NCBI RefSeq assembly: GCF_921293095.1
Contig: NC_060247.1
Coordinates: 110,627,111-110,691,110, forward strand
Reading direction: 5' to 3'
Origin: Ischnura elegans
Lineage: Eukaryota; Arthropoda; Insecta; Odonata; Coenagrionidae
Length of the DNA stretch: 64,000 bases
The notes under the pieces are model-generated. The model had not been told where the DNA came from. It searched no databases and saw only the letters and a program-made list of their open reading frames with translations. Positions 8,994-59,548 of this stretch are shown in pieces (the first letter of the stretch is position 1; each line of letters starts with the position of its first letter). Position numbers and translations under genes: made by a program.

Positions 8994-11900
8994 ATGGCGT
9001 CTACGAATCAACTATTTGTATTCGGTGAGTAATCAACATTTTTTAAAAGTAGCATGTGAAGTTCGGATGCATAAAATTCTAAGCCTTTGGAAAAATCTTG
9101 ATAATAGTCTCTCGAAACAGTGTTATGTGACATCTACGACATATTCCTTCTTTAGAATGCAAATAGGTTGGTTTTAGTACAAAAACTTCTTTTTTGTGAA
9201 TAAAATAGTACTTTGCAGCCACTGTGGTTTAATTTCTTTTAATCCGTGATGCAATAGATATTCAACAAAGGTCCTCTCTTTAAGTACATGCATATACTTA
9301 TAAAGTTTCAAGGTGTTAGTAGGGGATTTTTAGCAAGCAGTACGTCAGAAAAAGGACCCAAAATTAAACCGATAGAAAGGGAATAATTCGTAATCCTAAA
9401 GGCGCGTAAATTTGAAGAATAGCCATCCCAAATTAAAAACCCAAACTTTAATAATTTAACTTTGAACTACATTCTCAGATTATCTGAAACACGCTGTTAT
9501 ACTTCAATGATACTTTAGAAATTAATAATACATAGGGCTAATTATGCCCGCATATTTTTGTAGGTATTTTATGCGACTTATGGTAAAATTCAGCCTTTTA
9601 TACAGATGTTGATTCTGTCAATTGAATTATTTTTTTTAATACATTCCATCTTCTGTTAAATAATTCCTTTAATGTGTCCTTTTTTCCACCAACCTGACTT
9701 TCAAAGAAAATTAATTCTCGCTTTATTTTATTCCACTGATTACCCGGGGGAACAATGTTTAACACATTTGCTCATGACCTGAGTTTTTCAGATGCCCTAT
9801 GCTAAAATGGATACGGTGATTTCAAAACGGCAGTCAGATTCCTTCTAAGTTATCTCACTAAGCCTTGTGTAATTGTGACCACTCTCTACTACATTGAGCG
9901 CCGATCACAGGAAACATTACTGCTCACCAAATGACTGATATAAGCATTATCAGACTGGAGGCGGATGGTTGACATGGTAGGAGACCAGGGACAGGTACAT
10001 AGCTGTCTAATACGAGTAACAGGCCATCTTTACTGAATTATATATAGCTCGATGAATTCTTAATTTTAGTGATGAAAATATTAAAATTAATGATAATTAG
10101 CCGTAATTTATGTATTTGATATCTTTTGGAAGCGGCATTGCGTTTGCTTTCGGCGATTCTTTCGGACCGCCGAAGTATCAAATCGAAGGATCGGATTGCG
10201 CTAGGCGAAATTCTTCAGTGCACAGAAACTCTGGGAGCACTATAGTTATGCAGGAGATACTATGGTGAGACTTGCTTCTGGGAGGGAAGGAGGGATTAGG
10301 GATCATTTTTTATCTTTTAACACCTACATAATTCCTCTTCTTTACAACCTTCACCCCCTACTCTATGCACCTGTCTCATCCTAGGAGTACCTTCGCTCCT
10401 TCTTCCATTCCACCGGTCGTTAAACGATAACTTATATTAGAACTTCGTGTCACTTGATTTCGCCAATCAATTTGCCCCGTATTGTACCCAAACTTTACAA
10501 ATGACCTCTCTCCTGATCCTCTAAGAACTTCCGCATTGCTAACACTCGCCAAGCAGCAAACAATATCCCAACAACATCCAGACAACATTGTCGGCGTTAG
10601 CATATAACATTCGTGCAATATCCATGTTAGTACAATTAATGTTCTTTTGATATCAGTCAAATATTTAAAGGAATCACCAAACAACGTTGCAGCTATGTCC
10701 AACGGTGGACATGGAGATCCAAATTACAACATGTCTTAGATATCTTCACCGCATCTAATGAGTAGATAATGGGCATGCTTATAATGGTTTTTGGTAATCC
10801 CCAGACAAAAAACATGTTTTCTCTTAAATTCTCTACAGAAGATATGCTTACTATGGATATTGTTTGAAAAAACAATTTTTTTAATCATGGATACTACAAC
10901 TTGAATATCTATGATATATCACTTTAACAACTCGTTATATTTATATAACGTTGTCAAAATATCCATCGTGTAAAACAAACTTGTTTCGGGTATAAATATA
11001 TTCGGATATAAATATTTAGATATCCGATGGATATCGTCCGCTGCTTGGCTATCTGTCCTTTTGAACTGATTCTTCACCATTCCTCTAATCCCTAAAATTT
11101 CGAAAGCTTCCAATTTTAATTTTTTATGGCTATGGTATTTGGAGAAGGCGACCGAGATTTAACGCTTCTGGAACCCATTTTCAACGTGGGTATGGAAGTG
11201 AGGGTGGAGAGAAACCCGGCGTCGGTATTAGCCTGCTCTTAAAGAAAGGCGCCAAGGGGACCACGGCTTTACGTCCCATCCGACGGACAGAGTGTTGCAC
11301 TTAAAACATCCTCCACATAGCATGCAAGCAGGGATCGGGCAGTCAGTGAAAATTCTCTGCCAACGCCGGGATTTGAACCCATGCCTGCGGGGTAGAAAGC
11401 CAACACTCCAACACGATCCCCTCCAATCTTAGTTTCTCCATAGATAGATATAATACTAATTAAAATTTCATTCTCGATTTTCAGGACTTTTTCTGACATT
11501 TACGACGATCACAATCGCTACACCTCCAGCTTACCTGCAAACTGAGAGTTTTCTGGAATGCCGGGAAAGATCTAACGTGAGTAATGGAACAGAATAAATT
11601 TATGGCCCCAGAAAATAATTTAGATAAATGGTTTAAAATGTACAGCCTTTTGAGGTTATTTTACTAATCCAAAAAATATACTGTAAGTAAAGCAATCCTA
11701 TTGAGTAAATTAAATTAAACCTAATAATTTCACTGAGCTCTGGGAAATGTTTAATCCCACAAAACCCCTCTCGCTGCAGCACTTGTTGAAGAAAAGAAGT
11801 ATTGTGAAGAAAAATTAAAATAAATTACAATTATTAATTGATCCAATTGTGAAATTTAAGTAAGCTGAAAATTTTTTCAGGATCTTCTAGAGCCCGTAAT

Positions 11901-14900
11901 ACGTTGTCTCTCCAATGAATTCTCACCGGACAAAGTGAACGAAACAGCAAGACTTTACAGCGACACTACTGCATGCCTCTATTGCAAACACGTATGCAGG
12001 TGAGCAATAATACTTCATGACTTACTCGAGCATTGCTGAATTGAGATTAATTGTTCCACTGCATGAAATGTTGAAGTTAATATCTGATTGATTCATCTAC
12101 CTCCGGAGGTCTATTGACTTCACTTGTTCTTTATTAAACGAGGCCCAGGTGAGGACGAAATTCGGCCCCCTCTTCTCCAGGGCCTGGGCTCTTTTACATG
12201 ATTAATTACTTTGATTTCAGTCATTCAGCTCAGATATACATATAACTTCGGTTAACAGATGAGATTCTAAAAACATCCATTGAACATATGTCACTTCCTT
12301 CCTCTGATGGTTAACAATTATGACATTAGATTGAGCTGGTCAAGTCATGGTTGAGCATCATGTCACTAATATCACTCAGGAAGCCAGGATGCATGACATT
12401 ATTTTTTGCGAAAGCAGATAGTGAGCATTTTTTATTTAATCCAGGTCAATCATGCATAATAAACGCAATAAATAACAATTAAAAATTGGTAGATGATTAC
12501 CCCAAATCAACTATAATTAAATTTTTAATTAATGACCTTAAACGTTTTTAAAAGAATAACATGAAAAACAGGTAATAGCTTTTAAAATTTGTTTGTAAAA
12601 GTTGAAACTCAATTAATAATTAAATAATCATTAAGTGATGGACATATAAAACTTTAAATAAAATCAGCTAAAAAAATGAATGCCGTAGCTCTTTTACGTT
12701 GTATATGACGGTAAAAATTGTAAAAAATACAGCCAATAAATAATTGATCACTCGAATACATTAAATAGTTAGAGAAAGAATAAAATTCTACGTTACTGGC
12801 ATTGTGTAGTCCTTTTTTAATAAATATCATTGCAACTTTGTTTGAACATGCTTACTGTTAACCGATTAGGGATTTAAACATTCGGGATAGTGATCCCATA
12901 AAAGATCCTTACATACGGGTAGTAAGACGATGACGTATTAAAATCATCGTTTTTGCATTCCACGTTTTTCTCAGCGTGACGCTGCTCTAGCGGAAAGAAA
13001 TTGGTATACGAGGGTAACCCGTTTAAGAAAGTATCTGTCGTTTTAAAATTTAAATTATACCACTGATGATAAAACTTTATTATTATCTTCATATGGTGCG
13101 AAAGATCCACAGAGAAAAAATCATCTGCCTTGCCCGGGCGGGATCTTTCGCACGAGTGTGCAGTGCGGGTGACTCCCGTGTAAGTAATCTCCCTGGCTAG
13201 GCCCGGTATACTTAAAACCAAAATCTTGAAATGCTTCGCAATCCCTTCTTCATAAAAATTTCCTGCCTGTGAATGGTGCCAACCTGTCACCACGTTTTGA
13301 AGATCTGCGTTAATGTTGAGCCCCCGAAATCGTTGAGTAGTGAATGTTTGTTCTTCCAATTTTGAATAATCCTGCACAAAGACGGACTACACCTTCACAC
13401 ACACTGTCCGGGCCATAAACCTCACTCAATTCACGATGAGTTTCGGCTGCTGATCGATTTTTTCCCAAAAAAAACGTTTAATACCGCGCAAGATGCACGT
13501 AAAGGTACTCAATTCATTCTACAAACTCTGGCAAAATCAATGGGCATTAAAAATTACATTGGAGATAACCTTTTCTTATGATGTGTAATGTTATCACCAG
13601 ATCAATCTAACTATGTATTTTCAGGTTAATTATTGCTTAGGTAAGTTTTTGAAAGATTTATACCTACTAGCTAAACTCGATACAAGGCTGAATTTGTTGC
13701 AATCATTTTAATTTATAACATTTAGATTACGCGGTACTCTGCCGCTAGTTTTGAAAACATCATATTCACTTCAATCACTTTAAGAAAGATTGTATTCTCA
13801 TTTTCTCACCAGTATTAAGGGAAAATTGATCTTTTTTTGTGGAATTTAACATACAATCAATAACAATCAATTGTGGTACATAACTTTCTATTTATAGATG
13901 TGTTCGTTACGGTTGGTATGAAAACTTATATTTTTGTGTTATTGATAATAAATACTTAATTGTATTGTTTTCCGAACATTTTTACATGTTACCCTTGCTA
14001 TGATTTCTTCAAACCCGATATTTACTTTTGAGGGGCTGATAAGGCATATGTAGAAATAATATAGTTTTCACAGCGGAACATTGTAAGCATTTTCTATTCT
14101 GTTCACTTATAGGTTTTTCCTTCAGGATAATGTGTCTGCACTTATTTTTCACTTGATATGCACTCATTCAACTTGTCTATCAGTATTTTTATTTCATGGA
14201 GTTTTATAACGAAAATAATGCATATGCCATGCTTAAAACATTGTTCCAGGGAACTAAACCAGATAAAGGAGTGTCTGAGACAAGGAGTGGAAAGTATGAA
14301 GGATTTCTCCAATAAAGCGAAGACCATGATTCCATCCAGCGTGCAGTTGGCCGAGACATTAGCAGATTATTTCTGTAGCGCTGAAAGGGAAATGTTTCTT
14401 GGTAATTTGTAGTTCCTACCTACGCTTTGGGTTCACTGAAAAGATAACTTCCAGTTTGAAGATAAATTTCGGCAACACGCCATTATATTGTTGATGAAGT
14501 CTTCACGGGAAATCAGCCGGGTCAAGATTCATATTGCTGCCAACGTTTCAATGGCCTTCTCTGCCATCGTCTTCAGGGGGAATGATGGCAATGGTTAGTG
14601 GCGGGGTTATATCTCCCATCCCCACCCATCTGGGGCGGTGAAATCGTCTGTGAATGGTCAGTTTTGTAAAAGAGGTGATTGAAATAAGAATCGAAAACAA
14701 TGAAATGAATACAGACGCGGGTGTTAACCTCAGCAAAATATGGAATTCCATGATCAAAAGAATGAGAAAGCTAAGAGGAGGAAGACAACCAAAAACTGAC
14801 CAACCACAGATGACTTGACCGCCTCGCCCTGAAGACCATGGCAGAGAAGGGCATCGAAACGTTGGATGCAATATTTATATTTACACGGCTGATTTGCCGT

Positions 14901-16581
14901 GAAGACTTCATGAACAAGATTAGCCGGAAAAGTACCAGATCCTTCGCCATTATATTTTAAGGGCATTTTCTCGTGCTTGGGAAAAAAGGGGCCATTGTAT
15001 TCGGTTTGTCTGTATATGTATATATCTGACTTCGCTTTCACATCAATTTTGAGAACAACATGCAATGTAACATGATTTCAATGGCGGTTTTAGGTTCGGT
15101 ATGAAATGCCAAATTCTATAACTTATTATTCTGCCAAGGTCTGTTATCCAGGACCTTAGTCTGAGGCTTTCTTTGATTAGACATGATGACTTCTTTTCAT
15201 GACTTTCAGCGAATTTGGAGATATAACTTCAATGATGTTGGTTGTGATTTTAGGAAAAAGTTTGTAGAGGAATTATAAGTTCACTTAAGTTTACTTAATG
15301 TCACCAAGGTGATTCAAGGTCACCCAAGTTCAAATTATAGATGTTGACTAAGTTTGCAAAATAACTTTAATGAAACTGATCTCAACAAGAGAAAATGCGC
15401 TGCATGTCACTCACTGCAGAGAGTACTGACTTCTTTTTAAATCTATCATAAACTTTTCAGGCCTAACCGACGAAGATATGAGTTGTCTCAAGAATAGTTG
15501 GGACGAATGTAAATCAAATTTAGACTTCGTCAGAAACATGGATGCTGTCGCACTCTGCGAATTTGAAGATCCGGTTGCAACTAATCTGTATACGATGGAA
15601 TATGTCTGCAAGTAAGTATATGCTGATAACATTGACAGGACGGTCGCGACCGAGTGACTCACGCTTTGGACGCTACACTATGCTGAAATTTCGCGGGTTT
15701 TGTTGTAGCTTTGTTCCCAGGTGTATCTTACGCTTTGGAGATATTTTGTGTGATAGATTTATGACCGGTATCACCCCGACGAACGATACAACCTTTTTTT
15801 TGGAAGCATTGGCTTCAAGTGGGGATGAGCAGTGGTGTTGCGAGGGGAGAGGTCCGGGGGGTGTATAACCCCCTCTCCTTCTCCCCCGAAACATAAAAAC
15901 ACTATATCCTTCCTCAATAATATAATCAAAATATTGAAAAATCATGAATTTACAAAAGAGTTCTCCGACAAATGAAGTTTTTTCGATTATGAATTGAATT
16001 AAAATTATTTTATAACCTACTTAGGGCCGCGTTTTTCAAAAATGTTCCGCCCTGGTTTTGGACTCCCCCCCCAAAACAAATACCTGATCCAATACATACC
16101 AGAATACCTTTCGTCCTTGATTGTCATAAATAGTGACCGACTTTCGACTTTTCACGGTTGGCTTATTAAAGTGCATGGTGAACGGCGGTTGACATCGATC
16201 GATTTCCCATAATCATGAGTTTGGACACGGAATAGCAAAGATGAAACAAAATTGCATTAAAGAGCGTGGGAGGCGAGAATCCATTTTTTGACTTCTCAAC
16301 TCACCTGTACTAATTCAAAAGAATCTCCTCACTTGCATAAGTTTTCTTCCATAAGTTTTCTGCATGTTTATTACAAATTTATGAGAATTACGAATAACAT
16401 ATCCGACAATACATTTAATAACTCAAACCTTTTTTTCAACAGGGAATCGGGCGCCTATTTGGATTGCTCCAAAAAAAGCGTTTTGCCATGCTCATATAGA
16501 GTGCATAATACTTTTGCTGCATTTAAAGCGGTATTATTGATCTCTGCTCCCTGTGATAAATATGATGTTAAAGTGAGGTGA
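8994..16581 (+). CDS. Copy A: secreted 14-cysteine protein, 27-kDa hemolymph glycoprotein (DUF1397)-like
   Basis: Six coding exons: 8994-9024, 11485-11576, 11881-11999, 14250-14401, 15461-15611 and 16443-16581. All have GT/AG borders and compatible phases. They total 684 nt and give 227 residues. Residues 1-22 are a hydrophobic signal peptide, with cleavage likely after Ala22. Cysteines lie at 36, 50, 73, 76, 80, 89, 123, 140, 148, 164, 181, 190, 198 and 219, and N61-E-T is a sequon. The spacing of Cys pairs around helical segments resembles insect 27-kDa hemolymph glycoproteins. Those are secreted proteins of unclear function, so extracellular location is likely but activity is unknown. The ATG was chosen because it starts the signal peptide and is conserved in all copies. 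Introns 1-5 carry a SINE, a broken mariner, a MITE and another repeat. Family assignment is by pattern, not by search. Confidence 0.75.
11114..11426 (-). mobile_element. tRNA-derived SINE just before exon 2 of copy A
   Basis: On the minus strand it has a tRNA-like head with GGGTTCAAATCCCGGCGTTG, the conserved core CCGTCGGATGGGACG (complement near 11274-11288) and a 3' part. Copy C lacks it: there CTTCCAA runs straight into the exon-2-proximal intron (57934-57957). CTTCCAA (11107-11113) and CTCCAA (11421-11426) are probably the target duplication. The element ends about 60 bp before the exon 2 acceptor. Confidence 0.7.
12870..13570 (-). mobile_element. Internally deleted mariner in intron 3 of copy A
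   Basis: On the minus strand, the N-terminal mariner sequence (FARVCRMN type, around 13470-13560) runs within about 200 bp into a C-terminal-like segment (LQNVVTGWHHSQAGNFYEEG, about 13255-13315). The catalytic core is missing. A sister copy lies at the same place in copy B (about 31200-31840). Copy A alone carries an extra GC-rich piece near 13095-13205. The 167-residue open frame here is this relic, not a gene. Confidence 0.65.
14490..14944. mobile_element. MITE in intron 4 of copy A with precise empty site in copy B
   Basis: It is flanked by CGCCATTATATT at 14478-14489 and 14945-14956. Copy B has a single CGCCATTATATT at 32777-32788 and no insert. Subterminal inverted repeats of about 90 bp include GAAGTCTTCACGG, CCAACGTTTC and CTTCTCTGCCAT (left) and their complements near 14822-14912. 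It is 455 bp with no coding capacity. The minus-strand frames at 14548-15065 are chance. Confidence 0.8.
15830..16080 (+). repeat. CAGTGGCGTTGCG-family repeat in intron 5 of copy A
   Basis: It begins CAGTGGTGTTGCGAGG, has a GGTCCGGGGGG block and an A/T-rich middle with ATCATGAATTTACAAAAG, and ends near a GGTTTTGGAC plus C-run. Family members occur at 33678-33960 (copy B), about 49095-49240 on the minus strand (copy C), 39292-39520 and, in part, 36825-36910. Presence in intron 5 of all three genes implies insertion before the triplication. Confidence 0.65.
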
Positions 16582-18653: not shown

Positions 18654-21600
18654 ATGGCGTCTACGAATCAACTATTTATATTCGGTGAGTAATCAAAGTT
18701 TTTAAAAAGAAGCATGTGAAGTTCGGATGCATAGAATTCTAAGCCTTTGGCAGATTCTTGATAATAGAGTCTCTCGAATCAGTGTTATGTGACTCCTACA
18801 ACATATTCCTAATTTAGAATGCAAATAGGCTGGTTTTAGTACAAAAACTACTTTTTGGTGAATAAATAGCACTTTGCAGCCAATGAGCTTTAATTTCTTA
18901 TAATCCGGGATGCTATAGATAATTAACAAAGGTCTACTCTTTATGTACATATGTATACTTTGAAAGTTTCTAGGTCTCAGAAGCGAAATTTTTGAGAATG
19001 CATTACGTCAGAAAAAGGAGTCAAATTGAACCGATAGAAGGGGAATAATTCGAAAAATCTAAAGGCGTAACTTTGAAGAACGGCGATGTACAACCCAAAC
19101 TATAATAGTTTAGCATTGAACTTTGTTCTCAGATTATCTGAAAGATCCTTTGATGATTGTATGAATCAAATAAAGGGCTAATGGTGCTCGCATATTTTTG
19201 TAGGTATTTTATGCTACTGTTAGTAAACTTTAACTTTTTATACAGATGTTGATTCTGACAATTGAATTCTTTTTTTAATATATTCCATCTTCCGTTAAAT
19301 AATTCCTTTAATATGTCTTTTTTTCCACCAATTTTATCACAAGTGACTTTCAAAGAGAATTAATTCTCGCTTTATTTTCTTCCACTGATTACCCAGGGGA
19401 ATATTTTTTAACACATTTGCTGATGACTTGAGTTTTTGAGATGCCCTATGCGAAAATGGATGCTTTGATTTCAAAACTGGAGTTAGTTTTCTTCTAAGTT
19501 ATCTCACTACGCCTTGTGTAATTGTAACCGCTCTCTGCTAGATTGAGCGGCGATCACAGGAAGCATTACTGCTCTCCGATTGACTGATATAAGCATTATC
19601 AGACTGGAGGCGGATGGTTGACGCTGTAGGAGACCAGAGACAGGTGCATAGCTGTGTAACACGAGTCTTTACTGAATTATATATAGCTGGATGAATTCTT
19701 AGTTTTAGTGATGAAAATATTAAAATTCATGATAATTAGTCGTAATTTATGTATTTGATTTCTTTTTGAAGCGGCATTGCGTTTGCTTTCGGCGATTCTT
19801 TCGGACCGCCACTTTCGGCGGATCGTACCCGGCGATCACTGACAATGAGTTGAGAACCGATTTACGGGATTGGTCGCCGGTAGCCAATAGCAGTCCCTCT
19901 ACCATGGACGATTGTGCTAGGCGAAATTCTCTAGTGCACAGAAATTCCGGGAGCACTATAGTTATGCAGGAGATACTATAGTGAGAGTTGCTTCTGGGGG
20001 GAAGGAGGGCGTTGTAAGCTTTTAACACCTATATAATTCCTCTGCTTTCCAACCGTCACCCCCTATTCTATGCACCTGTCTCATCCTTGGAGGACCTTTG
20101 CTCTTCTTCCATTCCACCGGTTCGTAAACGATAAATTTTATTAGAACTTCGTGTCGCTTTATTACGCCAATCGAATTGTCCCGTATTTTACCCAAACTTT
20201 GCAAAAGACTTCTCTCCTGATCCTCTAAGCACTTCCGCGTTGCACTTCCACTAGCACTAGCCAAGCAGCAACCAATATCCCAACAACATCCAGACAAAAT
20301 TGTCAGCGTTAGCATATAACATTCTTCAATATCCATGTTAATACAATTAATATTCCACTGATATCAGTCAAATATTTAAAGGACCCATCAAACAACGTTG
20401 CAGCTATGTACTATCGTTTTCAAAAGTATGTAGACCACCACGAGCCCCACTTAAATGATGTGGTAGGGTCGGTAAAAACATGGAAGGTTGGCACATAAGG
20501 TAGCCTGCATCTCTCACCAGTACGCCGACGAGAGCCGACGAGGACGGACGCGAGGGCGACCGGGATAGCGAGACAGGAGTCAAACTACAGGCGCTATAGC
20601 CCAAGCGGATGGAATACACTGAGGAAACTCACGCACACGTTTTGGCCGTATGGAGATTTTCCATTTGGGCTCCCTGGCGAGGTTGTTCCTCTCTTTAGAT
20701 ACAAATTTGGACTCTCCATGAATACGGAATGTGTATGTGGCTCCGTAGTTGAGTAGGATTACTTCACGCGCATTTGATGCACTGAAGTTATGGGGAGGGG
20801 GTTCAAATCTGAGTCAATTGTATTTTATTTATTTTGTGAAATGTCAATTGATAACATCAACATAAGAGATATAGATTACTCAAAAAAAATAAACATCGAA
20901 TTTTTTTAGCGACTAATTTTTTTTTAATCCTTAATCCGCCTCAGTCAATGACGCAATCCGCCTTAACACATTTATTTCTAAGCAAATTTTTTCAAAGAGT
21001 GGAAATAAGCAGGGGAAGAGGCAGAGGTTGTAATTTGTCCGTTGAAGAAATGGATGATATCCATGCAGTCATAAATTTATATTATTTACATCAATGACGA
21101 ATTTAAATAATTTTTTCTCATGAAAACAATCTTAATTTTTGCAATGATGCAACAGTTCTCCCTGTTATGGATACTCTTAGTTTTGAATACAACACAGATG
21201 ATTAGGTTTATTGATTCCTGTAACGACAGTTTAAAGGCTGTTTTCTAACATAATGGATTGGAACTCCCCTCGAAAGCATTATCTCATGGAACTGACATGA
21301 AAGAATCTTACCAGAATATGTAGTAAATTTTTCATTACGCAAAATTTGTGGAAAATTAAAAGTAGCTGCATTTTTACTAGGCATACAGTTTGACTGCACG
21401 AAATATTAATGCTTCTTCTGCGATTAGGATAGCAGAGACAGAAAAAGTCATTACTTGGAAAAAGTGGGCTATAAGGTAAGCACTCGTTACTGGATTCAAA
21501 AATGTCCTTTCATCTTTTTTTACGATCCTAAAAATATTATTTTGCCACCTTTAAGTATTAAATTAGGGCTTTTTAAAATTTTTGTAAAAGATATGTGTAA

Positions 21601-24600
21601 AAATGGTGCAGTTTTTACTTATTTGAAACAAATGTCCTAAAAATCAGTAAAAAAAAACAGATAATAGAATGATTTTGTACTGGGCCGCAGATTTTTTTTA
21701 AGAAGCGCTGAAGAATTCGTAATTTTGACCACAAGAGTTCCACAAAAAAAGCGCGTGGAAGGCATTCAAAAATGCATTTGAAGATTTTCTAGGAAAGAGA
21801 ATGGCTAAATATCATCACGATCTGGTGGTTAATGTAATTAAATAGCACAAAAAATGGGCTGCTCTGCGTTGTCAAAACAAAACACTTCATTGGCTCACAC
21901 CTGGACTTTTTTCCTACAAACCTTGGCGTCGTTAGTGATCAACACGATAGGTGTTTCCACCAGAATATTCTACTGATACACGAACGGCACCAGCAAAAGT
22001 TCAGCAACATTTTGTCAGATTAGTGGTGGACACTGAAAAGGGATTCGACAGAAACTAAATATGCAAGAAAAATCCGAGTGAGTACCCATTTTTCACATTA
22101 TTTTAACTCACAATTTATTTACTTAAACTCCCTTGAATCCCCGTTGAATCCGATTGTCCTAAAAAAACTTAACGTGATGGAAAACATCTGGGCCCAGTTT
22201 CGGAATCAGCCCGAAAAAGACCAGAGGATCGGCAAAAAACATGGCTAGAACAGAAAAAATTATTTTTTGGTTGATCAGTGTTATCGATTGAGTTGCAAAC
22301 ATCATGATCTACGGCTATAATTCTGATTTCAACAACGAGTGTATCTGGCTATTGATTGAGTATTGTCCATTATATCAGTACAGATTTTTATCAATGGAAA
22401 TTTGACAGTAGCAAGGACAAATTACAACCTCTGCCACTTCCCCTGCTTATTTCCCCTCTTTGAATAAACTTGCTTAGAAATAAATGTGTGCAGATTGAGC
22501 CATTTATGTTAAAAAATTTGTCACTAAAAATTCGGTGTTAGTATTTTATTGAGTAAACTATATATATAATATTGATGTTATCAATTGACCTTTCACAAAA
22601 TAAAAAAATACAATTGGTTCATATTCAAATCCCCCCATAACTTCAGTGCGGGTGAAGTATATCGTCCACAGCTACGGAGCCATAGACACATTCCGTGTTC
22701 ACGGTGAGTCCAAATATGAATCTGAAGAGAGGAAATCCTCGCCAAGGAGCTCGCAAGAAAACACACCGAAGGCCCAACATGAGCGTGTACGTGAGTTTCC
22801 TATCCACTGGGGCATTTGAGCTTGTAGTTTGACTCCTGTCTCGCTAGCTCGGTCGCCCCCGCGTCCGTCCTCGTCGGCTATTGCTGGCGCACTGGTGAGG
22901 GATGCAGGCTAACTCATGTGCCAACCTTCCAAGTTTTTACCGACCCTACCACATCATTTAAGTGGGGCTCGTGGGTGTCTACATACTTTTGAAAACGATA
23001 GTACAACGGTGGACATGGAGGTCCATATTACAACATGTCTTAGATATCTTCTCTACATCTGAGTAGATAATTGGTATGTTTATTATGGTTTTTGGTGATC
23101 CGCAGACAAAAAAAACATGTTTACTCTTGAATTCTCTACGGAACATATGCTAACTATGGATACTGATTGAAATAACATTTTTAAATCATGGATACTACAA
23201 CATGAATATCTATGGAACTTCACTTTAAAAACTCGTTATATTTATGTAACGCTTTCAAAATATCCATCGTGTTATGAAACTGGTTTCGAGTATAAATACG
23301 TTATTTAGACATCCGATGGATATCGTCCACTGCTTGGGTATCTGTCCTTTTGAACTTCAGTGACTCTTGATTCTTCACCATTCCTCTAATCCACAACATT
23401 TCGAAAGCTTCCAATTTTAATTGGTATGGGACCATATTACCACATGACGGAGTGTTGCGCTTAAAATGTCCTCCACATAGCATTCAAGCAGGGATCGGGC
23501 AGTCTGTGAATATTCTCAGGCACCGCCGGGATTTGAACCCAAGCCTGCGGGGTGGAAAGCCAACTCCCCAACCTGATCATCTTCAATCTCAGTTTCTCCA
23601 TGCATAGATATAATACTAATTTAAATTTCACTCTCGATTTCCAGGACTTTTCCTGACATTTACAACGATCACAGTCGCTACAACTCCAGCCTACCTGCTA
23701 ACTGAGAGTTTTCTGGAATGCCGGGAAAGATCTAGTGTGAGTAATGGAGCAGATTCAACTTATGGGTCATTTTTTACATGAGAGGGTCGACTTGATCATT
23801 ACATGATAGCTGCCATTGTACACTCATTATTGACACCTTGTCTTTCATGATGCCATACACTATTCAGTGCGTTGGCAGTTCAGGCATTGATCTTTTTCCC
23901 GTTGAAATTGGTCCCCATTATCTATATAAAACAGTCCCATCTTCCAATCACGAATTATTATAAAAGAGAATGTGTATTATTTTTAACCCTGCCGCGTGAA
24001 CGGCGGTGAAATATACAAGAATGCCATTAGAAAAAATTCCCCTGGACCGGGAATGAACTACGGTCCTTGGCTTTCGATTAAATAAGCTTTTATTGCTTAA
24101 TTTTTGGTACAAACAGATACATAATACATCTAATGGGAACAATTTCAAACGTATTGGTATCACATACAAGTATATGAAAACACAACCTTATAAGCATTTA
24201 AAATTTTGATCTCAATCATTTGAATAAGCTTTTCTATACGTATCTTAGACATTTTCATTCAAATAAGAATTTGGAGGTAAACATAAGCAAAGAACATAAA
24301 AAATAGATTATTATTCTTTTATCAAATTTTCCAAAAAAAAGCATAGGTAAAAATGACCGGCGGGGCTCGGTAACGAACGTCCGATCCTCGGCACAGAGGC
24401 CAACCCTGCGTATGGGACCTGCCCAAACGTCCATTTCCACCTCAGCACAGATTTTTTAGTATATATTTATTTAGACATTTTTTATGTATATGCATAAAAT
24501 GGAACGTAAACATAAGTAAACATTATTTACAAAGGATTATTTTACATAGAATTCGAGAGAATACAATACGGGAAAATATTTCCTAAGCAGATGTCATTTC

Positions 24601-27600: not shown

Positions 27601-30600
27601 AAAAACTTTTTTGTTAAAATTGCTGTACCTAATGAGGAGTCATCAGTATTGCCAAATATGCGGTAATTTTTGCTCTGCCAAGCAGGTGATTCTTTGTATT
27701 CTTGAATAAAGATGACATCTGTTTTTAAATCATTGTACATAAAATTTTGAATTTCCATGATTTTTAAGGCATTCGTGATTCCGGCCACATTCAGTGACGC
27801 TACCGTTATATCTCGCTTATTTGAAGAGGTACTCATTGTTCGTTTTTTTGGAAGGAAGTAAAACTTTCTCTATTACGTTGTTGAAACAAACGAAGGGCGT
27901 TTGCATGCGAAATTCGTATCTTAAAAAGGGTGTCCAAAAGGAGAAAAAAGTTAAATTTAAATGGCGAGGTTCGGAAAAAGAGTCCGGCCCTCGACATCGT
28001 TCATATAGACCAACTCTGAATTTAATACCTCCGTATTCTTTACATAAGACAAGGGTTTGTAGACATTTTACATTCATGGTTATAACTGAAGCAAGATAAG
28101 AGCTATTCAAATAATTTAACATTAACTTTAACAAAACTTTAAAGGATTTATTAATCATTTTCCTTTTTTACTTGATTTTTTTTGTTCCCTTTGCGGTCAC
28201 CCTCCTGGAATCTGATGCCCCGGTTCCTAAGCTGTTCGTTCCACCTCTTCTTTTTGGTAGGTGAGAGGTCCTTCCCGAATAGCTTTTTCAGTTCCGCAGC
28301 TACGGCTCTGTTCTTGGCCTCATCCTCGGTGAGGTTGAGGGGCGCGCTGCCGCTGGAGGCCGCCTCATCCTCCTCCCCTCGCTCAGACCACAATCTGCTT
28401 GTACCTGGTAGGGTAAGGAAAGAAGAAGGTGGAAAAACTCCCCCCAAGCACCCCCCCAACCTCCAGGAAAATTTCCTTTTCTCCCAGCACGTTATTTTGG
28501 TCATCGCTCACTCCCTCCTTCACGTCCATGATTTCAATAGACTCCACACTGCCTGACATACTCACTCCCTCCCTCACCTCCTTGATTTCATTAGACCCCC
28601 CATTGTCTGAGGCACTCACTCCCTCCCTCACTTCCATGTTTTCTGTAGACCCCTCATTGCCTGAGGCATTTATGAAATCATTTGTCCCCTCATCCACACC
28701 AGAATTTTTGTCAATTTCATCGTTGGGCTCTCCCGCCGTCACTACAGCTTCTTCCGTGTCCGTCTCAGAGGAAGAAGATCCTTCTCCTTCATTTTGTTCG
28801 CCTTTGGAACTTTTTTTCTGTGTGTTCTATTTCTCCTTTTCGACTTCTTCTTTATCCCCCTCTCTGATGCACTCACATGACTCACGTAGTTATTTTGCAA
28901 GACTTTTTCCCCACTTTCATCTGGTTTTGGTGTCTCCTCCGGCAATTTGACTCCGTCTTCCGCCGGGATATCCATCCCCTCCTTGTCTTCTTCCACCTTC
29001 CCAGAATTTTTTAGAGCACTAGCGTATGATGGCCCCGGCCTAGTTTCTGGGCACTGTAGCCTTAAGTGCTCCTCGCTTCCACACCTTGAGCACGTCAGCT
29101 TTTGCCCATATTAGTGGATAACTGCGCGTTCACCGCCAACACTTATTACACTAGATATATTTTCCGTAAGTGACATCTTGACGGTTCTAGTGCCCGTCAT
29201 CGTGCCCTGGTGTATACCATCGCCGCTCCACTTATTCTCTGAGTATCCACAGACTTTGCCGTATTTGCTCAGCGCTGCATCGACTTCCTCACGTGTTACC
29301 TCGAAAGGAAACTGACACACTTTAACAAAAGTATATCTTTTGCATATTGATTCACACCACTATGAGAAATTTTTGGTGCCTTTAGCCGGGAACTGAAACT
29401 TTTCACCCACTTTCACTATAATTCTTTCTAAGGTAGATTCCTGCTTGACTTTCACAAGGAATGACTTCCTTCCTGGACCCAGCTGGATGCCATAAATTTC
29501 CTCAGTTTTCAGCCCGAGGTCTCCAACAACTAGTTGGTGGACCTCCAGGACCGAAGGCGTTTCACTAACACTCTCGATGTTTACACGCAGAGTGTTCTTC
29601 CTTTCCACCGGCATTTTGCGTCGACTCGCACTGCGTTCACCGACACGAAAACGCTAACAGACCGCGTACCCCTGGTACAGGAGTGCGCACACAAATAGTA
29701 CACTTTTTGCCTTCACTGGAAAAGTAAGTCACTTCACCGGGAACGCAACACTACGCTCCCGGCGATCAAGCGCTCGATCGCCGCGGCAAGAAAACCCGCA
29801 GTCGCTGACTCACAACAGAGCTCCCATAAGACGTCCGCTCACTAGTCGGCTTCCCGGGCCAATGCGCAGACCACTACGCTATCCAGGTTCTTAAATTCCC
29901 ATGGCAATTATACCAGGCTCATGGTACTAGGTGTAAGGCCCTCGCGGTCCATCAAGGATATTTTATTATAGCCATTTGAGGGATATTTTATTAATTCTAC
30001 CACTATTCTATTATTAATATCAATTATTGAGTAATTTTGGTTAACTTAAAAAATTTTCTGAGCTCTGGAGGGGTGTGTCATCCCGCAAAACCCCCCTATC
30101 TGCGCCACTTGTTGAAGAGACGACGTATTGCGAAGAGAAAGTCAAATAAATTATAATTATCAATTGATTCAATTATGAAATTTAAGTAAGCCGAACATTT
30201 TTTTCAGGTTCTTCTAGCGCCTGTAATGCATTGCCTCTCCGATCAATTCTCACCGGACAAGGTGAACGAAACAGCAAGACTTTACAGCGACACTACTGCA
30301 TGCCTCTATTGCAAACACGTATGCAGGTGAGCAATAATACCTCATGTCTTACTCGAGCATTGCTGAAGTGAGATTTATTGTTCCACTGCATGAAATTTAG
30401 AAGTTAATACCTGATTGATTCAACTACCTCCGGAGGACTATTGACTTCACTTGTTCTTTATTAAACGAGGCCCAGGTGAGGACAAAATCCGGCCACCTCT
30501 TCCCTAGGACCTGGGCTCTTTTACATGATTAATTACTTTCATTTCAGTAATTCAGCTCAGATTAAGATATAACAATGGTTGATAGATGATTTTCTCAAAT

Positions 30601-36600: not shown

Positions 36601-38294
36601 AAAATGTCCGCGGTGCAGTGATGAGTGCAATGCGATTCACCATTTTTTCCAATATTTTGCATTATAATGCTTGCATTTGCGAGGAAAGGCATTGAAAAGT
36701 TAAGAATTAGATATATTATATCATCATCATGTACCTACATATATTTCGGTTAACATCCATAATTATACGTTATTTTCCTGTGAAACTCAGATCAATTTGT
36801 CCGTCTCAGTAACCGTAAAAACCATCTACTTAGTACCCCCTTTTTTTTCAAATATTTTTCACCCAGGTTTTGGACCTCTCCCCCCGCCGGAAATTTCTGT
36901 CAACCCAAATAGGGAGGGGGTATCATCAAATTATTTAATTGAATTCGATCATAAAGACGCTCACTCGAGAGGTTTTTTACTTAGCTGGATAGGGTAGATG
37001 TAAGTGCCTTTGTTTGATTTTCATTTATAAAATATAATTCGGAGAATACATGCTTTTTTCATCGTTCGTGATTGATTGGGCGATAGTTGTGATAATGCTT
37101 GAGGATTTAATATGTTACCTTCCTTTTCCTCAAGGTAGAGTGCCACGGCGAAGTAACAAGTATTCGATGGAACTTTGGTCGCATATTTTTTGAAAGCTTA
37201 ATTTTCCAATGATCCAAAGTAAAAGGGATTCTTATGTGCCGTTTTTGAGTTATTTTACGGTAAAATTAGGATGATTTAAGATAGGCACTTATGGAGAAAT
37301 ACTGTTTCTTCGAGCTAGCGAAGCAGTTCGCAGCAAGAAGCTATTGAGACGGCACTTATTCGAAGCAAAATTATGTGAAACATCTAAATACTGTATATAC
37401 GAGAAAGTATTGGTTCATGATAAAATAAGAGATATATTTGCGAAAAACTTCCAGAAACTGGCTTGATGGCCGCCGGGATCTCTGGTACCAACATCGCAGA
37501 ATGATAACCAAAGCATTGACTTCGCCTAAATCACGCAAATATATGTAGGCTTTACATACGTTTCACATATCTTTTGCTTAAAAATAAATGTATTTATTTG
37601 GGATTTACATCATATTGCTGGATTGAGAATATTTATTCAAGGTTTGTCGTCAACAGTTCAGTTGCAAATATTCGAAGCAGTGTTGAAACTAATCAAGTAG
37701 ATTATTGTAAATACCTTTTTTAAATCATTTTTGACGTTTGCATTGTGCTGGTGCAAAATTGCGCTTCATTTTCGTACTATGTTTCATTTTGTTTAACATT
37801 GTTTTTCAACACTTTTACGTAAGTAATAAGTAGCCCGAGTAATTCACTTGACTTCAGCCGTTGCCGCTTTAACTACCTTATGATATGGATGTTGCAGATC
37901 TCGGACTGGATCATTAGGGGTGCTCGAACTCAGATAATCATGAGTTTGACCTCAGAATAACAAAGATGAAACAAAATTGCATCAAAGAGAATGAGAGGCA
38001 CGACTCCATTTTTTTTAACTTCTCAACTCACCTGTACTAATTCAAAGGAACCTCCTCATTTCCATAAGTTTACTGCATGATTATTATAAATTTATGAGAA
38101 CAGCGAATAACATATCCGACAATGCATTTAATAACTCAAATCTTTTTTTTTACAGGGAATCGAATGCTTATTTAGATTGCTCCAGAGACAACGTTTTGCG
38201 ATGTCATTCTAGAGTTTATACTGCTTTTCTTACATTAAAAGCGGTATTATTGATCGGTGCTCCCTGTGGTAAATATGATATTGAAGTAAGGTGA
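18654..38294 (+). CDS. Copy B: secreted 14-cysteine protein, 27-kDa hemolymph glycoprotein (DUF1397)-like
   Basis: Six coding exons: 18654-18684, 23645-23736, 30208-30326, 32549-32700, 33297-33447 and 38156-38294. Each has the same length as in copy A and all splice borders are intact, again giving 227 residues. Signal peptide, the N61-E-T sequon and all 14 cysteines are kept. Compared with A, the second half of exon 3 and most of exon 5 are nearly identical. Exon 6 (about 17 of 45 residues), the start of exon 3 and both ends of exon 4 differ strongly. The gene is stretched to 19.6 kb by a Tc1-like element in intron 1, a LINE in intron 2 and LINE pieces in intron 5. No disabling change is visible, so it is probably functional if those introns splice. 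Confidence 0.75.
20411..23001 (+). mobile_element. Tc1-like transposon with very long terminal inverted repeats, in intron 1 of copy B
   Basis: The arms of about 600-640 bp (20411-21050 and 22400-23001) start CTATCGTTTTCAAAAGTATG and are flanked by TA (20409-20410, 23002-23003). Copy A at about 10692-10704 is uninterrupted. The centre, plus strand 21430-22400, is a stop-ridden transposase; about 22174-22240 reads LNVMENIWAQFRNQPEKDQR, the Tc1-type C-terminal block after the catalytic DE region. Both arms carry a tRNA-like segment with GGCTCCGTAG and a GGTTCAAATC-type B box (20741-20811). The element is dead but structurally complete. Confidence 0.75.
23408..23592 (-). mobile_element. Deleted copy of the exon-2-proximal SINE in copy B
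   Basis: It aligns with 11107-11430 of copy A: same TTTTAATT start, GATTTGAACCC head and CTTCAATCTCAG exit. The conserved core is missing, an internal deletion of about 130 bp relative to A. Confidence 0.6.
23737..23900 (+). repeat. Ancestral intron 2 segment shared with copy C
   Basis: After exon 2, about 150 bp including GTCGACTTGATCATTAC and ACTATTCAG-GCGTTGGCAG align with the minus strand of copy C at about 57640-57795. Copy A lacks it. This sets the left edge of the later inserted material. From about 23940 to 24480 is AT-rich sequence with tRNA-like motifs, probably SINE pieces. Confidence 0.6.
24863..27836 (-). pseudogene. LINE ORF2: endonuclease and reverse transcriptase, broken
   Basis: The N-terminal piece (27240-27836) is an AP-type endonuclease with SLNVAG, IFIQE, NVYVPSGH and GGDFNAI motifs. 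An in-frame stop at 27237-27239 separates it from the next part. A frameshift near 26590 separates a linker frame (26521-26781) from a 578-residue frame (24863-26599). That frame has RT motif A AIDLEIAFD (about 165-173), motif B RQGCPLS (225-231) and YADD (264-267). The C-terminus has a CxxC-type zinc-binding cluster typical of L1/Tx1 ORF2. The motif-B position usually followed by P-x-L-F reads MLLFF. Enzymatic motifs are present but the ORF is disrupted. Confidence 0.8.
28151..29614 (-). pseudogene. LINE ORF1: nucleic-acid-binding protein with zinc knuckle, broken
   Basis: Minus-strand frames 29360-29614, 29111-29320, 28742-28996 and 28151-28742 read as one gag-like protein split by stops and frameshifts. 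The second frame is followed, past one stop, by LTCSRCGSEEHLRLQCPE, a CCHC zinc knuckle at about 29056-29107. After it come lysine-rich (KKKSKRRNRTHRKK) and Glu/Gly-rich repeats. The plus-strand ORFs over the same interval are shadows. Confidence 0.65.
31200..31845 (-). mobile_element. Internally deleted mariner in intron 3 of copy B
   Basis: The minus-strand frame 31621-31815 gives the N-terminal mariner block FAKSHSASEIHRELSAVYGQ and MSEIVVRHWVRLYKNG. The core is missing and only C-terminal and 3' end sequence follows. GGTATACGAGGGTAACCCGT (31359-31378) is kept in copy A too (13000-13019). Orthologous to the relic in copy A, so inserted before the A/B duplication. Confidence 0.7.
33678..33960 (+). 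repeat. CAGTGGCGTTGCG-family repeat in intron 5 of copy B, with C21 tract
   Basis: It is orthologous to 15830-16080. The right part holds an uninterrupted run of 21 C (33918-33938), then AGAACGAAATTTCTGGCTAC, which may be the opposite terminus. The C-run may be length-variable or partly an assembly artefact. Confidence 0.6.
34069..35138 (-). pseudogene. CR1/jockey-like LINE 3' fragment
   Basis: The 251-residue frame (34362-35117) starts mid-RT. It has SGVPQRSVIGPLLFIIYIND (motif B), LFADDAVIY (catalytic FADD) and a C-terminal thumb ending IQRKAARFVKNCYGRT. A frameshift near 34362 leads to the true C-terminus, and a 3' tail at 34069-34100 reads as TAGATG repeats on the minus strand. It is 5'-truncated, as is usual for LINE copies. 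Inserted in intron 5 of copy B after GGTGAACG (copy A has the uninterrupted site near 16172-16180). Confidence 0.8.
35336..35505. repeat. Short foldback repeat
   Basis: TCTCGGGTTTCCGCGCG...TAAGAAAAT at the left and ATTTTCTTACCTGCGCGGAAACGCGAGA at the right form an interrupted hairpin. A second inverted pair inside has ACTATTCTATTGTGGTCTTG and its near-complement. Probably a small MITE of about 170 bp. Confidence 0.6.
35520..36100 (-). pseudogene. RTE-like or related LINE reverse-transcriptase fragment
   Basis: The frame 35687-35869 reads GVKIRCIIFADDMVVLAED and LEEGMKKYRMKITVKKTKV, the catalytic FADD region and downstream block of a LINE RT. Frameshifted sequence at lower coordinates continues with an ITED...EIKRRIGMAKEVF segment. 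Truncated and degenerate. The clade is uncertain. Confidence 0.65.
36105..37930. other. Intron 5 of copy B: repeats shared with copy C
   Basis: The segment 36105-36290 duplicates 35139-35335 (AAAAATCTACTTAAA start). 36290-36540 matches 48210-48490 in copy C but in the opposite orientation relative to the gene. 36825-36910 is a partial CAGTGGCG-family piece. 37130-37930 aligns with the minus strand of copy C at about 47300-48110 and is therefore ancestral intron missing from copy A. Confidence 0.5.
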
Positions 38295-45725: not shown

Positions 45726-45729
45726 TGTC

Positions 45730-46950: not shown

Positions 46951-47077
46951 CTAACTATATTTAACACAGGAAGCAGATGTCGATAATGTCGTTTTTAATG
47001 CCGTGAAAGTAGTTGCCAGTATATTCCAATATGCTGAAGCACTTTTATTGGAGTAATCAAAATAATCGGCCGATTTC

Positions 47078-49884: not shown

Positions 49885-51067
49885 TTGCACACGTATTCCA
49901 TCGTATACAGATTATCAGTATCTTCAAAATCGCAGAGCGCAACATCATCCATGTCTCTGACGAAGTTTAAATTTGATTTACATAATTCCCAGCTATTCTT
50001 GAGACAACCCATGTCTTCGTCGGTTAGACCTGAAAAGTTGATGATAGATAAAAATAAATATCAGCACTCACTGCAGTGAGTGGCAAACAGTTATTTTGTA
50101 AGTTTTGTTGAATTTAATAATGTCACCTTGTTTGACCTCGAGTAACCTTCGGTGACCATGAGTCAAGGTCAAGACTCGAGACTTCTTATGCAAGCTTGTA
50201 CAATCAAAACTATTGAAGTCATTTCGCAAAATTCGAGAAAACCGCCAAAAGAATTCATCGTGTCTATTTAATCAAAGCCTCAAACTAAGGTCGTGGATAT
50301 TGGACCTGGGCATCATCATATGTTTTTTGGAAATGGCATTTCATACCGACCCTAGAACCGCCATTGAAATCATGTTACGTTGCATGGTGTTCAGTAAATT
50401 GACGCGAAAAGGAGGAATGATACATACGTTTAGAGACAAACCGAATATTATAGCGCCTTTTTTTTCTCCCAGGTATGGGGAAATGCGCTTAAAATATAAT
50501 GGACTTTTGCTCAAATTACTCTTAAAATTGGAAGATATCTTTTCAGTGATCTCAAAACTTAGGCACCAAAATTACCTAGAAGCATTTCCTCCTCATTATC
50601 ACAGAAAGCATTTTCAATTGTCTCAGCTAACTTCACGCTGAATGGAACCATAGTCTTCGATTTATTGGAGACATCCTTCATAATATGGATTCCTTCTCTC
50701 ACGCACTCCCATATCTGCTCTCGTTTTCTGGAAGAATGTTTTAAGAATGGCATAAGCATTTATTTGCGTTATAATACTGTAATGCTATGAAATCAAAATG
50801 CTGAAAGAGACAAGTTGAATCAGTACATCTGATATGATGAATGTATTAATGAATATATATTATTCTGCAGGAAAAACCTGCATTAGGAAAGAATAGAAAA
50901 TACATACAATGCTCTGCTCTAAAAATATCCTTTTTCAAAAATATAGCAAATCAGTGATACAAAAAAATATTCAGTTTTAAAGAAATGATAGCGAGGCTTA
51001 GTAAGTAAAAAATCTTTGGACAACAGCACAATAAAATATTCAATTTAAACAACACAAAAATATAAAT

Positions 51068-51640: not shown

Positions 51641-51749
51641 GTCTTTATTTAAATGACTGTAGTTGTGTAAAAAAGATTTCTGTTTGTGGGAAAAAACATG
51701 AGGATAAGGGTGTAATATCCTTCAATGAAAAAACTCACAGCAGGAAAAC

Positions 51750-52400
51750 GCCTACACAAGAAGGGGGGCGTTAAAAAACTGCGGAAACCTACTGAGTGAA
51801 AGCTTATGTCATGTTACATGCAAAATACAACATAGTTCATGAGGTACATAGAAAACACAAATATTACACATGCAATTAAGATATAATATATAACATATAT
51901 ATACAAGCATTCAGTGATACATATCACTTTGTCACAGGCTCTGCTCAGTGTCATCTATATTTACCTACTAGTTGTGAAGTGAAAAAGGCTTCGTGTAGCC
52001 TCTTAAAAGATACCAGTGATGATGAGCTCCTAGTTGAAAGGTTAAGATTATTCCATTCCCTACATGCAGTAACGGTAAATGATTTGTTGTAAATGACAGT
52101 TCGGTGATTAGGTATAACAAGATTGTGATTCCCTCTTGTGTTTGTCATATGCACAGTGTCAAGACTCCTGAACTCGCATGATAGGTAAGGGGGTGTTTTT
52201 GTGTTTAGAATTTGATATAGAGAGAAGAGATTATTATTGATTATTGATAGAGAGAAAGAGTATGCAGCCGGCGTCGAGAGTCGAGTTTCAGGTGAATTTA
52301 AATATCCTTTGAAGAAGTCATCGTAAAAGGGAACAAAAACAGCTGCAAATACTAAAATGACTGACCAGTATATGTCCTTAAGAAAACAGCATGCATATAT
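51750..52400 (-). pseudogene. LINE ORF2 C-terminus and 3' region, convergent with the preceding fragment
   Basis: The minus-strand frame ending at about 51951 has the conserved LINE tail: FRSLDTVHMTNTRGN, then FTVTACREWNNL and SLVSFKRLHEAFF. About 200 bp of AT-rich 3' UTR-like sequence follows to about 51750. The 3' sides of this and the 51068-51640 piece face each other. Confidence 0.6.
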
Positions 52401-55015: not shown

Positions 55016-58000
55016 TCTCGTGCCCTTACGCCTTGTGATATAAAAAACAGGACATAATAAAGGCAGTTGAATTTTAGTCTTGAAAGTGAGTGTGTCATGA
55101 TTTCCCTCAATCCTTCTTCTGTGAATCGTCGCACGCTACAGGAATATACTAGAAATATGAGGCTTGTGGCAAGGTAAATTCAATATTTATTACTGCGATG
55201 CCAATAGCGTTCGCTGCATGTCAACGCAACACCCTATTAAATTCAAAGGACAAAAATAAGAGGAATAAGTGGTTAATGGCGGAATTTCGTCTCGTTTTGC
55301 ATTCGGTCTTGATTCAAAAACAGGAACTCGAGTAAATACAGCGTAAATAGTTCTTGAAACTTATTTCTTTGCCTATCACATGCTTTTTTATGACCTTTTA
55401 ACGATCATTTGGATCTCATTCTTGGACAATTCTCGCGGTTCATACATTAATGGCCTTTCCATCTGATCCTTCCTTTTACCCATCCCCTTTTCTTGTGTTC
55501 CATTCTTTCGCTGCCCATATCCAATCAGTGAGATATCCAAGTCAAGCAAGATCATATCAAATCCAAATAACTATCGGGGCCGTACGTAAACAAAGAAGTC
55601 GCCTATAAAAGCCAGATGGAATGAATGTGTCGTTTTCGTAGTCTGCCACCAGGTGACTGAGTTCAAATTGTATGATTGTCTGAATGAAATTAGAGCAGGC
55701 GTTCAGAAATTCATACATTCTTACATTTTGCGTGGTTACACGGTGCATTTTCGCGTTCATTCTGAGATTCAGACATTCTCACATTTTCTTGTACATTCTC
55801 ATGTTCCGTGTAACCAGGCCTTTGTACACATTTATACTCGAAAAGCAGAAATAAACCTCTATGTCGGAGTATAAACTAAAAGTTATAAAAATTTTATAAT
55901 GCAGAAAAGAATCGTAAAGAAAATAATGTTAAGATAAATGTGTGAATGATACAAGTTTATTACGTTACAAATACTTAGGAGCGAGATATTAGTAACATAT
56001 GTTTGCAGCTCCTAAAATGTTGTAAGTAAGGAAATACAACAATCTGCCTCGCCACATTAACATTTTTTAAATATTGACAGCGTACAAGTGCGGAAAAATA
56101 GGGCATATAGTTAACTAAAGGTGGTTGATATAAAAAACAACATATAATTAAGCTTACTTGTTGTACTTTTTTATTGCTGATCGTAGCACAAATAGCACTA
56201 CAACGCACACAACATTTCACTGCACATTTTACGAGCTGCATTTATGGTACTTATAATCAGTAAATTCCGAATCAACTGATTTAATGAAAAACTTGGCTAA
56301 TTTTAATTTTAAAACTATATCGTAACACTAATAAAGCATTATAATCACTCTGCACACACTAAAAGCATTTGCACTCCTTGAAGTTCGAAAGAATTCTTCA
56401 CATCTCACTTCCCTGTCATCACTTACGATTTAGAACCACTTCATGTTATTTCACATTAGGGTACCATCACGTATAAAATGAAATGAATAGGCTGAAACAA
56501 ATTTCTAAACCAGTTATTGTAACATCAACAAACTTCCAATCTCACTATCACTCTTACCGTAACCAAAACAAAAAAAACAGCGCAACGAAATGCGTGAAAT
56601 CTAAACACTGGTGATAGTTCGCGATGAAGTGACCAGAATAAGTAATAAAATCAAACAGAACTTGTAAGCGTGCAAACGAACGAAAATTAATGAGCGTTCA
56701 ATGTATTCCTAAAGATTAACTACTACAAATATGAAGCATATCCCCCTCACAACAGTTAGATACCCTTGATGGAAATGTATAGGGTTGATTAAACCAGTAT
56801 GGAAGAAATAAATAATTTTGCCGAACCTCATACACTAACAATCACTTCAAATGCCGCTTCACTCTTAACTTCATCGTCTATATGCAATCAATTCACTTAG
56901 GGGTACACTAAAAGCAAATTTTGTTCACTTACACTAGAGGCACAAGTTCACTGCACGTCGTAGTTTCCTTGTAGCTATTAAAAAAAATTCAATTCCTGTC
57001 AAAAATTACACTACATACGATGATTGATGACTACCTTACTTTAAGAATGGATTTTCGTGTTCCATTTTAGCGCAAATGCGTAAAAAATCCTTAACAGTAT
57101 ACAAATAATACCGGAGTTCGATCATCCATAACGGTCCGCCATATTTAGTAGCTCCCTTAGAAAAGGCAGGTGGGCGACTAAGAGCCGGCTACTATGATAG
57201 TAGCATACCAAGCTTAGTAGCCCTTACTAAAGATCTATGAATACCATTGTGCCAGTATGCAACTACTTAGAACGCTACTTAGGCGTTATTAGCTTACTAA
57301 GGAAACTACGAATACGGCCGCAAGTCTAAATCAGTTGAAGAAAGAGCACCTACCAAAATGTATATATATATTTCTAGGTGTTGGTGGTGTAAATTTTCGA
57401 ATTGTGAATTCTAGAACTATTTTGGAGTAGAAACTTCTAAAGCATACATTTGCATTATAATGTTATTTTGTAAGAAAGGTTATAACATTTTCGAGGTTAC
57501 CAAAAAAGTTTTTTTGTAGGGAGTAGAACACTTTGACGATGAATAAAATATCAATGAAAAGACTGGGAGCAACTGAGTGCAACTTAAGATGGCTTCTCAA
57601 AATTTCATGGATCAAGAGCGTTTTAAACACTTAGGTTGTGCAACGCCTGAGCTGCCAACGCTCTGAATAGTGATCGGCATCAAGAAGAACAAGATGTGAA
57701 AAATATGTCTACAGTGGCAGTTATAAAGTAATGATCAAGTCGACACTCTCGTGTAATAAAAATGACACATAAGTTGTATCTTTTACATATCTCACGTCAC
57801 ATCTTCTCCGGCATTCCAGGAAGCTCTCAGTTAGCAGGTGGGCGTGCGGAGATGCAGCGACTTTGAACGTCGTAAATGCTATGAAAAGTCCTGGAAGCCG
57901 AGAATAAAATTTAATTAGTGTTATATCTATCTATGGAGAAATTCAGATTGGAAGCTTTCGAAATGTGGGTGCATAGAAGAATAGTGAAGTTCAGATAATG

Positions 58001-59104: not shown

Positions 59105-59240
59105 ACACACGGGATCGATGGGTACTTCTCGGAATTTCATGAAAGTGGTATTACTAACGTTCCTGTAAATTTTGAGCTTGTTGGAAATTTATGCAAGGGT
59201 CAATGTCTATTTTTATCGGGCTATATTTGATTCATATATA
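59105..59240 (+). repeat. Dispersed repeat shared with 800-945
   Basis: Same order of blocks: GATGGGTACTTCTCGGAATT, GTGGTATTACTAACGTTC, TTGTTGGAAATTT. It lies in intron 1 of copy C. Confidence 0.45.
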
Positions 59241-59548
59241 AGTATCAAACCGTCTTCCAGATACTCTGAGAACGAAGCTCAATGCTAATGTATTAAATTT
59301 TGGGGTGTTCATCGCCATTCTTCAAAGATAACTGCGGCTGCGGCAACTGCATTTGCCGCAGCTTAGAATTTATTTATATTTTCAAGATAAGAATATGTAG
59401 TAGGAGTCACATTACACTGATTTGAGAGACTCAATGATCAAAAATCTGGCAATGGTTTAAAACCTTATGCAGCCCAACTTCGCATGCAACTTTTCTAAAA
59501 CGCTGATTATTATTCACCAAATATAGCTAGTTGATTCGTCAACGCCAT

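Follow-up and report, generated by a model that had tools for sequence, protein, structure and literature searches.

A chromosome 2 array of cysteine-rich secreted-protein genes in the damselfly Ischnura elegans, probably an offshoot of DUF1397

What kind of gene system underlies a set of short, repeatedly occurring exons on chromosome 2 of the damselfly Ischnura elegans, and what might its proteins do? The stretch analysed here (64,000 nucleotides, C2:110,627,111-110,691,110 of assembly ioIscEleg1.1; hereafter, the window) had been described in a first-pass annotation as holding a three-gene cluster (that is, two intact copies, A and B, and a decayed inverted copy, C) of secreted proteins suggested to be related to the insect 27-kDa hemolymph glycoproteins (DUF1397; Pfam family PF07165). 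We find that two intact genes and one decayed copy are indeed present, although the scale was misjudged, as the window is a slice of a 1.26-Mb array. The annotation's further statement, that no other host gene system could be supported in the window, was not contradicted, no search for other spliced host genes having been made. The explanation that we favour, with confidence a little above even, is that the window contains two intact genes and a pseudogene of an array of DUF1397-derived soluble secreted glycoproteins, perhaps serving as a defence or recognition repertoire; this grading mixes high confidence in identity and array with lower confidence in function. Genome-wide searches covered the I. 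elegans assembly of 1,722,721,009 bases in 110 contigs (chromosome 1, C1, 170,575,982 bases; chromosome 2, C2, 147,998,192 bases), the published description of which gives 110 scaffolds, 1,723 Mb, and 170.58 Mb and 148.00 Mb for chromosomes 1 and 2 (PMC9975421).

Rebuilt from the sequence, copies A (plus strand, 8994-16581) and B (plus strand, 18654-38294) share one exon plan, with exons 1 to 6 of 31, 92, 119, 152, 151 and 139 nucleotides, intron phases 1-0-2-1-2 and AG/GT splice sites; the joined exons of each (684 nucleotides) encode 227 amino acids and a stop codon, with 14 cysteines. Both models came out as first proposed (six exons of 31-152 nucleotides with matching phases and two intact 227-residue proteins), and the proposed protein features are also present in the sequence, namely the cysteines, an N-glycosylation sequon and an N-terminal hydrophobic run that, judged by eye, is typical of a signal peptide. 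Within the codons of exons 2-6, 86 sites distinguish A from B. Neutral drift was simulated starting from A, with as many changes as separate the two copies; 93% of trials acquired a stop codon, and 57.6 nonsynonymous codons were expected against 45 seen (p 0.0005), so that the reading of A and B as genes is more than chance. The ratio of nonsynonymous to synonymous change (dN/dS) between them is 0.33 in exon 2, 0.55 in exon 3, 0.49 in exon 4, 0.15 in exon 5 and 0.99 in exon 6 (0.54 overall), so that, between these two copies, exon 5 is held under constraint and change is freest in exon 6. When these short exons are tested singly, only exon 4 departs from neutrality at 0.05 (p 0.0025). Over exons 3-5 of seven copies, nonsynonymous codons fall below the neutral expectation in all 21 pairs and significantly so (p<0.05) in 16 of the 21, the pairs not being independent.

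The family extends well beyond the window. Three protein queries (copy A and two divergent members) were searched against the genome at E<=1; copy A gave 112 matches, all on C2 at 109.81-110.95 Mb, and the divergent members gave 78 and 132. Altogether, 311 of the 322 match rows lie inside C2:109.75-111.01 Mb (1.26 Mb, 0.07% of the genome), the remainder comprising nine rows elsewhere on C2 (109.53, 119.7 and 121.4-121.5 Mb) and two on C9 and C10 (E 0.56 and 0.16). With the C9 and C10 rows excluded, the merged core holds 163 exon places (57 for exon 4, 46 for exon 3, 44 for exon 5, 9 for exon 2 and 7 for exon 6), which form 62-65 locus groups depending on the allowed gap; 51 of these have at least two exons in order and 31-34 have exons 3, 4 and 5 together. 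At E<=0.001, all 102 exon places (39 of them exon 4) are in the core, in 41-46 locus groups. These counts are estimates from exon-level matches and not from annotated genes. We are highly confident, for identity and array jointly, that some forty to sixty related tandem secreted-protein loci occupy these 1.26 Mb of chromosome 2. Three further groups of array-type exons lie 9-10 Mb from the main array (C2:119725435-119726890, 121444935-121449296 and 121476385-121477839), two of which keep the same 1.3-kb spacing between exons 3 and 4.

The array might be mostly dead, in which case a small number of functional genes would stand among numerous pseudogenes of the copy C type. Copy C runs on the minus strand from 59548 down to 46951 and retains exons 1, 2, 4 and 5, yet the donor site of exon 1 is changed, no exon 3 was found in the interval 50728-57795 and exon 6 is degraded with an early stop, bearing out its description as a decayed inverted third copy. 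Pieces of retroelements lie in the introns of B and C (24863-26599, 27240-27836 and 34362-35117 on the minus strand; 51068-51598 on the plus strand), three of these four open reading frames having RVT_1 matches and one a weak endonuclease/exonuclease match below its cut-off; the piece at 51068 sits inside the interval in which copy C is without exon 3. The decay of copy C, the presence of a single exon only in 11-14 of the 62-65 locus groups and the near-neutral divergence of several copy pairs are all as expected of a mostly dead array. Against this, 11 copies (A, B, D, E, F, Gg, H, I, M, N and O) are readable across exons 3-5, and two more (J and K) across exons 4-5 only. The nine and two of these that lie outside the window have the same exons and phases as A and B; the exons read are open and differ in length by multiples of three, and those of the 11 copies have usable splice sites. 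This counterargument is weak, as the exon finder takes open exons only and most copies read are best matches, and broken copies are under-seen for the first of these reasons. On balance, we regard a mostly dead array as improbable.

Descent of the array from DUF1397 can be assessed against the genome's true DUF1397 gene (C1:29,786,007-29,797,916), which served as a positive control and covers PF07165 positions 3-207 with 218 bits once exon 2 is added (the gathering score being 25.7 bits). All four introns compared lie at matching places in the array and in this gene, with identical phases: exons 2/3 in phase 0, exons 3/4 in phase 2 after a cysteine ('C-R'), exons 4/5 in phase 1 and exons 5/6 in phase 2 after a cysteine ('C-K'); the boundary between exons 1 and 2 of the C1 gene is uncertain and was excluded. 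Aligned exon by exon with copies A, D, M and N, the C1 protein scores z 7.1 over full shuffles and 4.4 with the cysteines fixed, neither being reached by any of 60 shuffles; among 24 exon orders, the true one scores best. The cysteine-fixed signal comes from exon 4 (z 4.0) and exon 6 (z 3.2). Outside the C1 gene, the sole PF07165 match in the genome at E<=10 (E 4.3, profile positions 64-120) is at C2:110,179,630-110,179,797; it is worthless alone as an E-value, and what counts is its place, as it falls on an exon 4 of the array that was found too by all three array queries. Moreover, C2:109.532 Mb, which is 0.2 Mb away from the array, holds a last exon whose cysteine spacing (C-7-C-20-C) is close to the one in the C1 gene.

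Several results weigh against the explanation that we favour. The profile search, which the first-pass annotation had proposed as a check on its DUF1397 assignment, places the proteins outside that family: none of 13 distinct array proteins (A, B, D-K and M-O, several of them partial) matches PF07165 at E<=10. Comparison by hhalign of two array profiles (A1 and A2) with the single C1 sequence was non-significant (E 0.11 and 0.024; probability 0.5% and 2%), the C1 protein as a query matched no core-array exon at E<=10, and the cysteine-fixed similarity to C1 is near nil for exons 3 and 5 (z 0.5 and 1.0). With respect to coding constraint, A-D and B-D over exons 3-6 show no departure from neutrality at 0.05 (p 0.11 and 0.058), and exon 6 of A-D is slightly above the neutral nonsynonymous expectation. 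The profile, hhalign and C1-query results would fit a new secreted family without kinship to DUF1397, its likeness in gene structure and cysteines having arisen by convergence. We consider this unlikely: convergence would have to account for four matching introns of identical phase (two directly after a cysteine), similarity to C1 above that of shuffles in which the cysteines were kept, a sole additional PF07165 match located in the equivalent exon of one of the array genes, and the C1-like last exon nearby. The first-pass assignment is supported in part, in its claim of relationship, through the shared introns, exon-by-exon similarity and additional exon 4 match, and we suggest that the array is probably a fast-diverging soluble offshoot of DUF1397, a relative by history though not by profile.

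The comparison also shows what has changed. Both the array and C1 proteins are cysteine-rich, and the last exon begins K|x7-C-x7-C in copy A and the C1 gene alike, whereas copy A has two extra cysteines in exon 3 and one in exon 5 and lacks the middle cysteine of exon 4. The C1 protein has a hydrophobic C-terminal tail that could be a glycosylphosphatidylinositol signal, whereas A and B end in polar residues. In number, DUF1397 on C1 amounts to one gene and a partial neighbour, compared with dozens of array loci on C2. A second last exon of DUF1397-like sequence (C1:29815411-29815614; 49% identity, E 1.7e-5) occurs some 18 kb downstream of the C1 gene. A published table sets the name DUF1397 beside PF11901 and not PF07165 (PMC8418000), and the expression count given there under DUF1397 may for this reason concern another family.

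Within exon 3, the sequon occupies position 20 in 6 of 11 copies and position 27 in 4 of 11; no copy has both and one (copy N) has neither (Fisher p 0.015, which is weaker than it looks because the copies are related). The two places are seven residues apart and would be on the same face if helical, and in copy M an additional sequon occurs at position 5. Sequence searches recovered no relatives in PDB (best E 0.85 and 0.34). Matches to Flagellar_rod (best E 0.0034, 3 of 10 members), DUF6812 (E 0.0029, 1 of 10 members) and GF_recep_IV (E 0.009 in copy M, below its cut-off) were judged to be chance or cysteine/coiled-coil matches and were rejected. The phase-2 introns placed directly after a cysteine at both the exon 3/4 and exon 5/6 boundaries gave rise to the idea of an internal two-fold repeat (that is, exons 3 and 4 against exons 5 and 6). 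Pooled over array members and the C1 DUF1397 gene, exon 4 resembles exon 6 (z 6.2; 4.8 with cysteines fixed), the corresponding values being 1.7 and 1.0 for exon 3 against exon 5 and 2.9 and 2.6 for exon 4 against exon 5; within single proteins, exon 4 against exon 6 gives z -0.8 to 2.1. We take this as a hint of internal duplication within the array and DUF1397 proteins.

Assuming that descent from DUF1397 is correct, the array can be envisioned to have arisen from a DUF1397-type gene (that is, one of the 27-kDa hemolymph glycoprotein family) through duplication and heavy divergence; similarity at the profile level may have been lost in the process, with the exon plan, the phases and the greater part of the cysteine frame kept. 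The genes would encode secreted, disulfide-rich glycoproteins of approximately 227 residues, each presumably leaving the cell in soluble form, N-glycosylated and locked by disulfide bonds, and the array as a whole may supply many variants of a binding surface. The pattern of divergence between A and B is as expected of a repertoire for recognition or defence caught up in an arms race, and in Galleria a 27-kDa hemolymph protein is reported to rise after fungal challenge (PMC4224417). A defence role leans on such reports about relatives together with the divergence pattern, and this dependence also counts against the full explanation given above. Reproductive, salivary and digestive settings likewise favour large, diverging tandem gene families. 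The same family and array might accordingly have a reproductive, salivary, digestive or peritrophic-matrix role, its diversity stemming from mating conflict or diet and not from infection. In keeping with a non-defence role, published lists place DUF1397 in the peritrophic matrix of mosquitoes (PMC5865745) and in the venom of scutigeromorph centipedes (PMC6878950), and the salivary glands of lice are listed with a 27-kDa hemolymph protein (PMC12106848); the array sequences themselves point to no single tissue. This set of non-defence roles seems possible, if somewhat doubtful. For function overall, a hemolymph or epithelial recognition/defence repertoire is in our estimate a serious candidate that falls short of even, all other secreted roles taken together have about an even chance, and a largely non-functional array is unlikely.

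Features of copies A, B and C in the window (positions counted from its first nucleotide)
Feature	Position	Strand	Remark
Copy A, 5' flank	8613..8993	+	directly upstream of start codon; similar to flanks of B and C
Copy A, exon 1	8994..9024	+	start codon, part of putative signal peptide
Copy A, exon 2	11485..11576	+	
Copy A, exon 3	11881..11999	+	sequon N61-E-T
Copy A, exon 4	14250..14401	+	
Copy A, exon 5	15461..15611	+	dN/dS 0.15 against B
Copy A, exon 6	16443..16581	+	with stop; AATAAA at 16738
Copy B, 5' flank	18267-18653	+	similar to flanks of A and C
Copy B, exon 1	18654..18684	+	
Copy B, exon 2	23645..23736	+	
Copy B, exon 3	30208..30326	+	
Copy B, exon 4	32549..32700	+	
Copy B, exon 5	33297..33447	+	
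Copy B, exon 6	38156..38294	+	with stop; polyA-type signals at 38411 and 38450
Copy C, 5' flank	59549-59920	-	similar to flanks of A and B
Copy C, exon 1	59518..59548	-	start codon kept, donor changed
Copy C, exon 2	57796..57890	-	open
Copy C, exon 4	50576..50727	-	open
Copy C, exon 5	49885..50029	-	open, two codons shorter
Copy C, exon 6 remnant	46951..47077	-	2 of 3 cysteines lost, early stop

As a separate observation, COX1-like matches number 43 in the genome and are spread over the chromosomes. Almost all are partial, and the majority contain stops under the standard code; they are probably nuclear mitochondrial fragments.

The closest parallel that we can offer is one of working and not of kinship. 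The bicycle genes of aphids, which are gall effectors, likewise form a large, fast-diverging, multi-exon, cysteine-bearing family of secreted proteins whose kinship was traced via gene structure (PMC9168663, PMC13041983). Bicycle proteins are reported to have saposin-like folds (PMC13041983); their likeness to the array is by description and not by comparison of sequences or gene structures, and bicycle genes serve galls, whereas damselflies make none. Of the papers found to mention DUF1397 (7) or 27 kDa hemolymph (12), none names an odonate in its title. The portions of the literature returned for Ischnura/Odonata gene families and damselfly hemolymph protein held nothing on this array (RefSeq annotation being outside this scope), and the parts of the Calopteryx and Pantala genome papers seen held nothing on this family.

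In summary, the array is probably of the DUF1397 kind, in a variant invisible to the PF07165 profile. Families as large as this one are usually a sign of repeated selection, yet surveys that rely on domains to find damselfly gene families would miss it for want of a recognisable Pfam domain. As a tentative and bolder proposal, odonates, an early branch of the winged insects, may have turned an ordinary hemolymph glycoprotein into a megabase repertoire of approximately 60 profile-invisible secreted recognition or effector proteins, which may vary between individuals and constitute an unrecognised arm of immunity. The link through gene structure gives the array an ancestor and, conversely, offers many natural variants with which to probe the role of DUF1397.

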